Below are positions 7,624-34,890 of a stretch of DNA of 42,824 bases, piece by piece (within the stretch, counting starts at the first letter, position 1; each line of letters begins with the position of its first letter). The notes under the pieces were generated by a model that was given only the letters and a program-made list of their open reading frames with translations, made no database searches and was not told where the DNA came from. Both the position numbers and the translations under genes were made by a program. Source of the DNA: Thermodesulfobacteriaceae bacterium (lineage in GTDB: Bacteria; Desulfobacterota; Thermodesulfobacteria; Thermodesulfobacteriales; Thermodesulfatatoraceae); NCBI GenBank assembly GCA_015494065.1, contig WGCA01000015.1, forward strand, positions 1 through 42,824, read 5' to 3'.

Positions 7624-7899
7624 ATGGCCCGCATCCCCCTTGAAAAGGCCTTAAATTGGGCCTTAAGTCAAGCCCCTCAATTAAAAGAAGGGGACTGTCT
7701 GGACCTCCTTTGTAAAAAGAGGAACCGTTTGGTAAGGATTGTCAAATTGGAAAAAGGTTATCGCCTCGAGGAAAGGGGCTTTTTTAAAGAGGATCACCAG
7801 GCCGCTGAACTCAAAGAACTGGCCAAGGTACTTGCCAGACTCATTGCCCGGGAATTTCCCCGCAGCCATATGCTTTGGGCTTTCAAAAGAAGGGCCTAG
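7624..7899 (+). CDS. Conserved-looking 91-aa protein of unknown function
   Basis: A 91-aa soluble protein with alternating charged and hydrophobic residues and a helical C-terminal half (KELAKVLARLIAREFPRSHM). It has no signal peptide, transmembrane segment or motif that I recognise. It ends 3 bp before the ATG of the PF09818-type ATPase and shares its strand. The two probably form one transcript and could work together, but that is inference from position only. It is divergent from argJ. Confidence 0.65.
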   Translation: MARIPLEKALNWALSQAPQLKEGDCLDLLCKKRNRLVRIVKLEKGYRLEERGFFKEDHQAAELKELAKVLARLIAREFPRSHMLWAFKRRA

Positions 7900-30386: not shown

Positions 30387-31886
30387 TTACCACGTCAAAC
30401 GGTCAAATACGCGGTACTGTAGGGCCTCAAGGAGGTGAGGGGCGTGGATATCTTCCTCTCCGGCAAGATCCGCGATGGTGCGCGCGATTTTGAGCAAGCG
30501 GTAGTAGGCCCTGGCCGAAAGATTTAACTTGCGGGCGGCCTTGTCTAGCAAGGCCCTCTCTTTTGCCTTGAGGGAGCAGAATTGCTTGAGCTCTTTGGTC
30601 CCCATTTGCGCGTTGGTCCGTCCTGACCCCAAGCGTTTTTCCTGCCGTTTACGGGCCGCCAAAACCCTTTCCCGGACTTGGGCCGTGGTTTCTCCGGGAC
30701 GTTGCAGGGAAAGATCATCATAATCTACCGCCGGCACCTCCACCTGAAGATCGATCCGGTCCAACAGCGGGCCAGAGAGTTTGTGGCGGTAACGCCGCAC
30801 CTCCTGCGGGGTGCACTGGCAAACACGCTGTTTGCTCCCGAAATAACCACAACGGCAGGGATTCATGGCACACAGGAGTAAGAACCGGGCGGGGTAGGTG
30901 ACCGTAAGCTGGGCCCGTGCAATGGTGATCTCCCCGGCCTCAAGGGGTTCCCTGAGGGTCTCAAGGGTGTTGCGTCGAAACTCCGGCAATTCATCCAGGA
31001 AAAGGACTCCGTTATGTGCCAGCGAGATTTCTCCGGGGCGGGGAGGGTTCCCGCCCCCGATGAGGCCGGCGTCCGAAATACTATGGTGTGGGGCCCTAAA
31101 AGGCCTCTGCCAGACCAGAGGATTTTCCCGGTTCAAAAGGCCTACTACGCTATAGATCTGGCTCGTCTCAAGGGCCTCTTGGTGGTTTAAGGGAGGCAAA
31201 AGACCGGGAAGCCTTCTGGCCAACATGGTCTTTCCTGCGCCCGGAGGCCCGATGAAGAGCAAATTGTGCCCTCCGGCGGCGGCTATTTCCAGGGCCCTTT
31301 TGGCCTGTTCCTGCCCCACCACTTCGGCCAGATCAGGGCCTTTTTCTTCAGACTTTACGGAAGAGACGGCAGGCACTTTTTCGTGTCCCAGGCCTGTTAC
31401 TGCCTCGGCCAGATGGCTGGCCCCCAAAACGGGCAGATCCCTTGCTAAAGCCGCTTCTGGGACATTTTCCGCCGGGCAGACCAGAGAAAGCTTTTCCCTT
31501 TTGGCTTTCAAGGCTACCGGCAGGACCCCGGAGACGGGCTTTAACCGCCCGTCAAGAGAGAGTTCACCAAAGAAGAGATATCTTTTGACTTTTTCTTGGG
31601 GTACAATGCCGGCAGCGGCCAAGAGGGCAAAAGCCATGGGCAGATCAAAGGCGCTGCCTTCCTTTTTGAGGTCAGCCGGGGCCAAGTTAACGGTGATCTT
31701 CTGGGTAGGGAAGGGAAAGCCCGCGTTTTTGAGGGCCGCTCTCAGCCTTTCCTTACTCTCTTTAACCGCTCCCTGGGGCAAACCCACCAGGGTGAACCCC
31801 GGCAATCCCTGAGAAATATCCACCTCAACTTCTATCAGGTGGGCCTCCACCCCAATAATAGCTGCCGAATAGACTTTGGCTAACAC
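30387..31886 (-). CDS. comM: YifB/ComM-family Mg-chelatase-like AAA+ ATPase
   Basis: A 499-aa protein. The N-terminal Lon-protease-like fold (VEAHLIEVEVDISQGLPGF, KITVNLAPADLKKEGSAFDL) precedes a ChlI-type AAA+ core with Walker A LLFIGPPGAGKTMLARRLPG, Walker B NGVLFLDELPEF, and ILLLCAMNPCRCGYFG with zinc-like cysteines. The C-terminal Mg_chelatase_C region is ARAYYRLLKIARTIADLAG. ComM is a branch-migration helicase in natural transformation. The start is GTG 31886 with GGAGG 5 nt before it; it is divergent from the 32224 gene. Confidence 0.95.
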   Translation of the reverse strand: MLAKVYSAAIIGVEAHLIEVEVDISQGLPGFTLVGLPQGAVKESKERLRAALKNAGFPFPTQKITVNLAPADLKKEGSAFDLPMAFALLAAAGIVPQEKVKRYLFFGELSLDGRLKPVSGVLPVALKAKREKLSLVCPAENVPEAALARDLPVLGASHLAEAVTGLGHEKVPAVSSVKSEEKGPDLAEVVGQEQAKRALEIAAAGGHNLLFIGPPGAGKTMLARRLPGLLPPLNHQEALETSQIYSVVGLLNRENPLVWQRPFRAPHHSISDAGLIGGGNPPRPGEISLAHNGVLFLDELPEFRRNTLETLREPLEAGEITIARAQLTVTYPARFLLLCAMNPCRCGYFGSKQRVCQCTPQEVRRYRHKLSGPLLDRIDLQVEVPAVDYDDLSLQRPGETTAQVRERVLAARKRQEKRLGSGRTNAQMGTKELKQFCSLKAKERALLDKAARKLNLSARAYYRLLKIARTIADLAGEEDIHAPHLLEALQYRVFDRLTW

Positions 31887-31948: not shown

Positions 31949-31977
31949 TCGACAAAATCGACAAAATTTCGACATAG
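31949..31977. repeat. TCGACAAAA direct repeats in the comM upstream region
   Basis: TCGACAAAA occurs twice in tandem (31949-31957, 31958-31966), and a third TCGACA follows at 31969 in TCGACATAG. The spacing of about one helical turn suggests a regulator-binding array for comM (63-91 bp from its start), but no consensus is recognised. Confidence 0.4.
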
Positions 31978-32090
31978 CTGGCGAAAAATATTTTTTCTCC
32001 CAAAATTTTTAAGTCCTGCCTCCCGTTTTAAACCAGGGCTTTGGCACTACCAGAGAGACTTAAGAGCCGCTCTTTCTGCTTAGCGCAAAT

Positions 32091-32107
32091 TGGCACAGAT
32101 ATTGTAT
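32091..32107 (+). promoter_or_regulatory. Sigma54-like promoter (-24/-12)
   Basis: TGGCACAGATATTGTAT matches the sigma54 consensus TGGCAC-N5-TTGCW except that the -12 pair is GT instead of GC; the GG and GT are 10 nt apart as required. Start of transcription would be near 32117. A small palindrome (AAGAGC-C-GCTCTT, 32062-32074) lies upstream. Confidence 0.45.
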
Positions 32108-32116
32108 CTGAAGCTT

Positions 32117-32184
32117 TTAAAAAACTTGCCCGAATCCCCCTCCCTCTCACGTTTTGGGCCCCTTAACGGGGCCTTTTTCTTTTT
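32117..32184 (+). ncRNA. Candidate small RNA between the sigma54-like promoter and a terminator
   Basis: The predicted start at about 32117 and a strong intrinsic terminator ending at 32184 leave a ~65-nt transcript with no ORF. It carries a C-rich single-stranded stretch (32131-32149) before the terminator stem. The region is a divergent spacer, so the terminator cannot end a protein gene on this strand. It could be a small RNA or an attenuated leader. No known RNA family is recognised. Confidence 0.35.
32156..32184 (+). terminator. Intrinsic terminator in the divergent spacer
   Basis: Stem GGCCCC (32157-32162) / GGGGCC (32168-32173), loop TTAAC, followed by TTTTTCTTTTT on the plus strand. 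There is no T-run on the other strand, so it works in the plus direction. Confidence 0.75.
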
Positions 32185-32187
32185 GTC

Positions 32188-32215
32188 TTGAAGCTTTGTC
32201 CAAGAATAATATAGT
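32188..32215 (+). promoter_or_regulatory. Possible promoter for the 32224-37794 operon
   Basis: TTGAAG (32188-32193), 16-nt spacer, TATAGT (32210-32215). Transcription would start almost at the GTG at 32224, which would make the first message leaderless or nearly so. Confidence 0.4.
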
Positions 32216-32223
32216 GTGAAGGC

Positions 32224-34890
<2,667 letters not shown>

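Follow-up and report, generated by a model that had tools for sequence, protein, structure and literature searches.

The spacer between a comM-like gene and the pyrG operon carries a conserved σ54-type promoter, an invariant C-rich block and an intrinsic terminator. Computation also establishes an antisense match between the RNA predicted from this element and the Shine-Dalgarno (SD) region of rpoD, in which one position is compensated between clades. On balance we favour the interpretation that the element specifies a σ54-dependent, Hfq-independent small RNA (sRNA) blocking RpoD translation; transcription, repression and trigger are inferred, and there are no expression data. The window (the whole stretch of DNA analysed, 42,824 nt) is one contig (C15) of a 2.03-Mb genome, G000, that is 99.9% complete. 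Feature coordinates are collected in Table 1.

Table 1. Features in and around the comM–pyrG spacer (window positions).
Feature	Position	Strand	Evidence
comM-like Mg-chelatase-family gene, divergent	30387–31886	−	Pfam Mg_chelatase, E 9e-99
Three TCGACA repeats, 122–142 nt upstream of the −24 box	31949–31974	+	Sequence count
σ54 −24/−12 promoter, TGGCAC-N5-TTGTAT	32091–32107	+	Sequence, relatives, same form at PII and rpoN
Predicted sRNA, about 65 nt	32117–32183	+	Promoter and terminator, folding, synteny in 4 of 10 family genomes
Invariant C/U-rich block AATCCCCCTCCCTCT, mostly single-stranded by prediction	32133–32147	+	Identical in four genomes
Seed CCCCUCCCUCUCA, 13-nt perfect antisense of rpoD SD region UGAGAGGGAGGGG	32137–32149	+	Watson–Crick run computation
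Intrinsic terminator of the sRNA	32156–32183	+	Terminator scan; differing hairpin sequence in G001 and G003
σ70-type promoter TTGAAG-N16-TATAGT of the ORF132–pyrG operon, 3′ of the terminator	32188–32215	+	Sequence scan
132-aa ORF (ORF132) without Pfam match, directly before pyrG	32224–32622	+	ORF list, Pfam
pyrG	32625–34295	+	Pfam CTP_synth_N, E 1.3e-127

The initial annotation had placed the element in the spacer between divergent comM and the pyrG operon, an assignment borne out by the open reading frames and their Pfam matches. Its statement that nothing is encoded between promoter and terminator also holds: the sole same-strand ORF of at least 40 aa across the stretch is a 41-aa TTG frame (32041–32166) that starts upstream of the promoter and is not credible as a gene. 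ORF132 was found in all ten family genomes. The N-terminus of its product is hydrophobic, and the protein is possibly LptC-like, which is a guess.

The earlier annotation had also named the −24/−12 element and the stem as features to be looked for in related genomes. At the ORF132 locus, promoter, block and terminator are kept in four of the ten family genomes (G000; its near relative G006, which matches an 821-base stretch of the window at 91%; G001; and G003) and the element is absent from this locus in the other six (G002, G005, G007, G004, G008 and G009), so that conservation was found in part of the family only. In all four carriers the distance from the start of TTGTAT to the start of the block is 29–31 nt, and 42–44 nt on from there, behind the GC hairpin, comes a T-rich tail. 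G000 has GGGCCCC...GGGGCCU as its hairpin and G001 has CCCCCGCC...GGCGGGGG; the hairpin is therefore retained while its sequence changes. When G001 was compared with the window, promoter plus sRNA aligned (score 44, null maximum 24), whereas the spacer upstream of the promoter did not (17, null maximum 25); for G003 the corresponding values were 43 (null maximum 28) and 51 (null maximum 27). Covariation in the stem is slight, with one pair changed on both sides and 41 of 500 shuffles reaching the covariation score. This figure comes from a structure-fitted alignment (A6); MAFFT shifted the block by one base (A1, A2) and misplaced the stem (A3). In the RpoD tree G002 stands beside G001 and G003 (supports 98 and 91); the joint tree lacks PyrG of G003, whose frame was not recovered. 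With G008 and G009, which represent the other genera, taken as the root, loss of the sRNA in G002 is probable, although separate gains are not excluded.

The promoter consists of TGGCAC (32091–32096), an AGATA spacer and TTGTAT (32102–32107), with a predicted +1 near 32117–32119. The −24 box is TGGCAC in G000, G006 and G001 and TGGCAT in G003, the −24/−12 spacing is exact, and the −12 box is identical in all four. The σ54-like element proposed at the outset is thus present and conserved, with the reservation that its −12 box has TTGT and departs from the canonical TTGC. RpoN is encoded in the same genome (PF04552, E 3.6e-62). The pattern TGGCAYN5TTGYW has 14 matches there against 5 for the reversed pattern, and TGGCAYN5TTGYWT has 102 against 11 over nine relatives. 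Three of the 14 sites fall within long same-strand ORFs, and ten have the start codon of an open frame 33–88 nt further on; at the window's site the next frame begins only at 133 nt, past the terminator. Pfam identified products at six of the ten start-adjacent sites: two ammonium transporters, P-II, FliL, a FlgE/F/G-type protein and an N-methylation (pilin-type) protein. The TTGTAT variant occurs in 17 of the relatives' 102 sites, three of which are the syntenic counterparts of the window element, and a site of this type, TTGGCACAAAGATTGTAT, precedes the PII gene of G000. Given the excess of σ54 sites and the same TTGTAT before PII and rpoN, we regard the window promoter as a member of a class in use, and we judge the RNA to be very probably σ54-driven. 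A crude script run on the fetched sites, covering 90 of the 102 listed (five in G006 and seven in G008 were left out), flagged only the three syntenic relatives as further σ54-driven, terminator-ended units. Separately, rpoN itself is preceded by TGGCACGGGAGTTGTAT, 48 nt before its start, in G001, G003 and G007 (L124, L197 and L207), which suggests autoregulation of σ54 in these three relatives; the gene was identified by Pfam Sigma54_AID, scanned for the G001 copy (L124) only.

A small palindrome upstream had been put forward as an activator site. The palindrome is there (AAGAG-CCG-CTCTT, 32062–32074), and G006, at 91% identity, retains both arms; the activator role did not find support, as the palindrome was not seen in G001 or G003 in the spacer read upstream of ORF132. 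It lies 16 nt from the −24 box, which is close for an enhancer site. Farther upstream, three of the eight plus-strand TCGACA hexamers of the window are clustered near the comM start (Table 1). G006 has the repeats at 123–143 nt upstream and G003 has two, at 113 and 134 nt. Three CGAC cores also occur upstream in G006, G003 and G001 (in G001 farther away and without the full repeat), and one occurs in G002, which lacks the sRNA. The TCGACA region is a weak candidate for activator binding, no activator having been identified, and the repeats may equally belong to comM.

The RNA predicted from this promoter ends in a GC stem (32156–32174) followed by a T-run on the same strand, about 50 nt 3′ of the promoter; a stem and T-run had been described there from the first and are kept in four genomes. 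Conservation carries the weight for this assignment, since a simple terminator scan did not exceed chance (three found, shuffle mean 3.9). The C-rich block, quoted as AAUCCCCCUCCCUCU, recurs together with promoter and terminator; CCCCCTCCCTC is present once in G000. The 5′ half folds weakly and is predicted to be mostly unpaired. Unpaired probabilities of the block's C positions exceed 0.75 in the four sequences, except at C14 (0.66 in G000, 0.48 in G006), and the folding energy of the whole G000 RNA is unremarkable (z −1.18). The initial annotation had called the C-rich stretch accessible, as prediction agrees, and had missed both its invariance and its match to rpoD. On computational grounds only, the element satisfies two criteria of a trans-acting base-pairing sRNA: it has its own promoter and terminator and no coding content, and it has a conserved seed, predicted to be unpaired, with complementarity to a distant mRNA. 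Hfq (PF17209) gave no match in the 99.9% complete genome, while 5 of 14 control genomes were positive. The original proposal of a σ54 promoter driving a terminator-ended RNA of about 65 nt with an exposed C-rich stretch is supported by synteny in four of ten genomes, by RpoN, by the σ54 regulon and by the σ70-type promoter past the terminator. We conclude that the sRNA is very probably real, with the caveat that no transcript data exist.

Targets were sought in the four genomes that carry the sRNA, with the single pattern GRGGGRGGGG, which is complementary to the C-rich core when G-U pairs are permitted. Its 94 sites are no commoner than those of the reversed control. We examined 91 of them; the three left out were G006:C201 and, in G001 and G003, the sRNA's own antisense. 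A site was scored as ribosome-binding (RBS) when it lay 0–21 nt before the start codon of an open frame. Among these 91 sites, no gene but rpoD had a complement at its RBS in every one of the four genomes. Its product contains σ-70 regions 1.2, 2, 3 and 4 (Pfam, G000 copy), from which we read it as the putative primary sigma factor, RpoD. The other homologous pair of RBS sites (L252 in G000, L281 in G006) is confined to two genomes, at a GTG possibly inside a gene.

In G000 the rpoD site UGAGAGGGAGGGG lies on contig C19, upstream of the ATG at 7882. The leaders are UUUGAGAGGGAGGGGUUUAUG in G000 and G006, CUUAGAGGGAGGGGUUUAUG in G003 and UUUAGAGGGAGGGGUUUUAUG in G001; the facing sRNA seeds are CCCCUCCCUCUCA in G000, CCCCUCCCUCUCAA in G006 and CCCCUCCCUCUAAG in G001 and G003. 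Uninterrupted Watson–Crick runs between each sRNA and its cognate leader are 13, 14, 13 and 14 nt (G000, G006, G001, G003), and 11 nt with the rpoD leader of the other clade. The base after UCU is C in G000 and G006 and A in G001 and G003, and the facing target base is G or U, a compensated change. With one G-U pair the duplex reaches 19 in G006 and 18 in G003, and the first rpoD codons add weak pairing on its other side. Against 420 candidate leaders of the own genome, taken from 133 kb of sources that the gathering had enriched in G-rich and σ54 sites, rpoD ranks first in duplex energy and alone has a Watson–Crick run above 9. Among examined sites its run is the longest in G000, G006 and G003 (the sRNA's own antisense excluded) and the second longest in G001, where a longer complement of 14 nt occurs at a site not flagged as an RBS. 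Dinucleotide-shuffled sRNAs reached the cognate energy in 3, 0, 3 and 0 of 2000 cases, and shuffled leaders in 0 of 2000 each. We judge it reasonably likely that rpoD is the best target of the sRNA.

These data leave a possible, though in our estimation unlikely, alternative: a real σ54-dependent sRNA that acts as a broad anti-SD repressor of many G-rich sites, with rpoD one target among them or not the main one. The block is itself anti-SD-like (CCCUCCC), and the purine-rich SD core of rpoD is also found in relatives without the sRNA, so that any C-rich RNA resembling an anti-SD would share some of this complementarity. Watson–Crick runs in these relatives are 9, 10, 10, 12, 9 and 9 nt (G002, G005, G007, G004, G008, G009). 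In a matrix of duplex energies over nine leaders (G009 left out), the G002 leader AAUAAAGGGAGGGG is the weakest with each sRNA (−25.1 to −27.2 kcal/mol). G004, which has no sRNA at the locus, still offers a 12-nt run and energies of −36.5 to −39.4 kcal/mol, hardly different from the −36.6 of the G000 cognate pair. For the G001 sRNA, its own leader (−35.6) ranks behind those of G003, G004 and G008 (−40.4, −38.9 and −36.0). From the G004 energies and the G001 cross-scores we infer that the purine-rich SD of rpoD either predates the sRNA or does not depend on it. Judged from the leaders, the presence of the sRNA is tracked only by a short extension upstream of the rpoD SD, and covariation amounts to essentially one compensated position between two clades. 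Uninterrupted pairing with rpoD does not account for the block's conserved AAUC and fifth C, and an ammonium transporter has an SD with GGGAGGG in G000 (L085) and G006 (L236), for example AACGGGAGGGUUUUUAUG. What speaks against a broad repressor is that rpoD stands alone among the 420 own leaders in run length and energy, and that the extension past the SD core follows the sRNA by clade.

At the scale of the phylum, a covariance model (R2) was run on 395 genomes; 89 of these contained matches at E ≤ 0.01, many of which covered the terminator alone. One of the best 30 loci is the window; by eye, the other 29 have no σ54 box within 75 nt upstream, three of these lying near contig ends where the printed stretch is possibly misplaced. 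The second-best match, at 36.6 bits in G329, combines a C-rich block with a terminator. The output of this R2 run did not include G001, G002, G003 or G006. When the block was searched at up to two mismatches in the ten family genomes, the promoter was seen only at the four syntenic copies (30 located matches, 60 nt upstream, by eye). Two loci of G007, a relative without the window element, were recorded in their own right. At G007:C41 (L048, about 1490–1540) a terminator-like hairpin after a cytochrome-c-like gene, found by eye, exposes in its loop AAATCCCCCTCCCTCC, 10 nt of which are complementary to that genome's own rpoD leader; this is possibly an analogous RNA. At G007:C1 (L058) a short gene encodes a Gly/Arg-rich protein; its end, TAATCCCCCTCCCTTA, precedes a terminator-like hairpin, and the C-rich stretch has 11 nt of complementarity to the same leader.

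The element might instead be a leader of the ORF132–pyrG operon, with σ54 transcription entering the operon and the terminator serving as a conditional stop. pyrG leaders are attenuators in Firmicutes, the terminator shares the strand of ORF132 and precedes it by about 40 nt, and an antiterminator might in principle form between the C-rich block and the terminator's G arm, a fold that was not tested. We dropped this as the main reading because a σ70-type promoter follows the terminator. Both of its boxes, TTGAAG and TATAGT, also occur in G001, G003, G006 and the element-less G002; by eye, the TTGAAG box was not seen in G005 or G007. Transcripts from this promoter cannot contain the terminator, which makes an independent RNA the simpler reading. 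In addition, ORF132 occurs without the element in six relatives, and the minimum-energy folds consist of the terminator and a largely open 5′ half, leaving an attenuator very improbable. Least probable of all is a chance arrangement of promoter- and terminator-like strings that yields no transcript and matches rpoD by coincidence: the terminator scan is no better than shuffles and reversed-control σ54 matches do occur in the relatives, but four genomes from two clades share block and TTGTAT without a change, and in G001 promoter plus sRNA align with the window where the upstream spacer does not.

In the σ54-dependent repression of RpoD that we favour, σ54-RNA polymerase would transcribe the sRNA of about 65 nt, which would end at the intrinsic terminator. 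The C-rich block in its unstructured 5′ half is predicted to pair with the SD region of rpoD mRNA, so occluding the ribosome-binding site and start codon, and RpoD synthesis would fall. Core polymerase is in limited supply, and sigma factors compete for it. Less RpoD while σ54 promoters are active could free core polymerase for σ54 and other sigma factors. Pairing may proceed without Hfq, on the strength of the long GC-rich duplex. The likeness of the promoter to that of PII makes nitrogen limitation a plausible trigger, an inference only. We give even chances to the full proposal of a direct RNA-level sigma switch, in which an sRNA made by σ54 and dedicated to the rpoD translation start would lower the σ70 supply in a thermophile without recognizable Hfq.

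To our knowledge, RNA control of sigma balance acts on alternative sigma factors, or through 6S RNA on the holoenzyme. If the proposal is true, it would be a new kind of wiring for an sRNA made by one sigma factor to shut off translation of the primary one, and the locus offers a concrete sRNA–target pair, open to test, in the Thermodesulfatator lineage. We saw no sRNA targeting rpoD mRNA among the papers listed by the literature searches, which covered open-licence PMC papers and in some cases listed only part of those matched. In some of these papers RpoD serves as a ChIP target and rpoD mRNA as a normalization control, and another names RpoD as a promoter class. Among the papers listed for Thermodesulfatator, none had a title on sRNA regulation in this genus.

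The RNA was not assigned to a known family: the sole gathering-level Rfam match in the window is a tRNA, and permissive matches below gathering scores differ among the four members, the best being SorX on G003 (25.3 vs 46.6 bits, E 0.011). The nearest functional analogue that we found is MmgR (αR8; Rfam RF00519, suhB) of Sinorhizobium meliloti. MmgR is a 77-nt, NtrC-induced RNA with an anti-SD motif that depends on Hfq and for which no direct target is described (PMC7143759). The RF00519 covariance model aligns to the window RNA end to end and on the right strand, but scores 15.8 bits against a gathering threshold of 41, by which test the window RNA is not a suhB/MmgR member; the family was not listed for the other three members (L034, L035 and L037) up to E 5. 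MmgR also differs in phylum and in its need for Hfq. NrsZ of Pseudomonas aeruginosa and GlnZ of Enterobacteriaceae are RpoN-dependent sRNAs, GlnZ belonging to the NtrC regulon (PMC9731577). They differ from the window RNA in locus and targets, GlnZ arising from the glnA 3′UTR. The Qrr sRNAs of Vibrio are σ54-dependent; they differ from the window RNA in having quorum-sensing targets and in being Hfq-dependent and multi-stem. They have a conserved pairing core and are switched on by the response regulator LuxO (PMC4211561). No gathering-level match to 6S RNA was found within the window, the only sequence scanned for it. 6S RNA binds RNA polymerase holoenzymes (PMC8998176). The two are alike in that each would lower σ70 activity, and differ in that 6S RNA acts on the holoenzyme whereas the window RNA is predicted to act on the translation of rpoD mRNA. 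The RNA itself is of a known kind; the target proposed for it, rpoD, is unusual.
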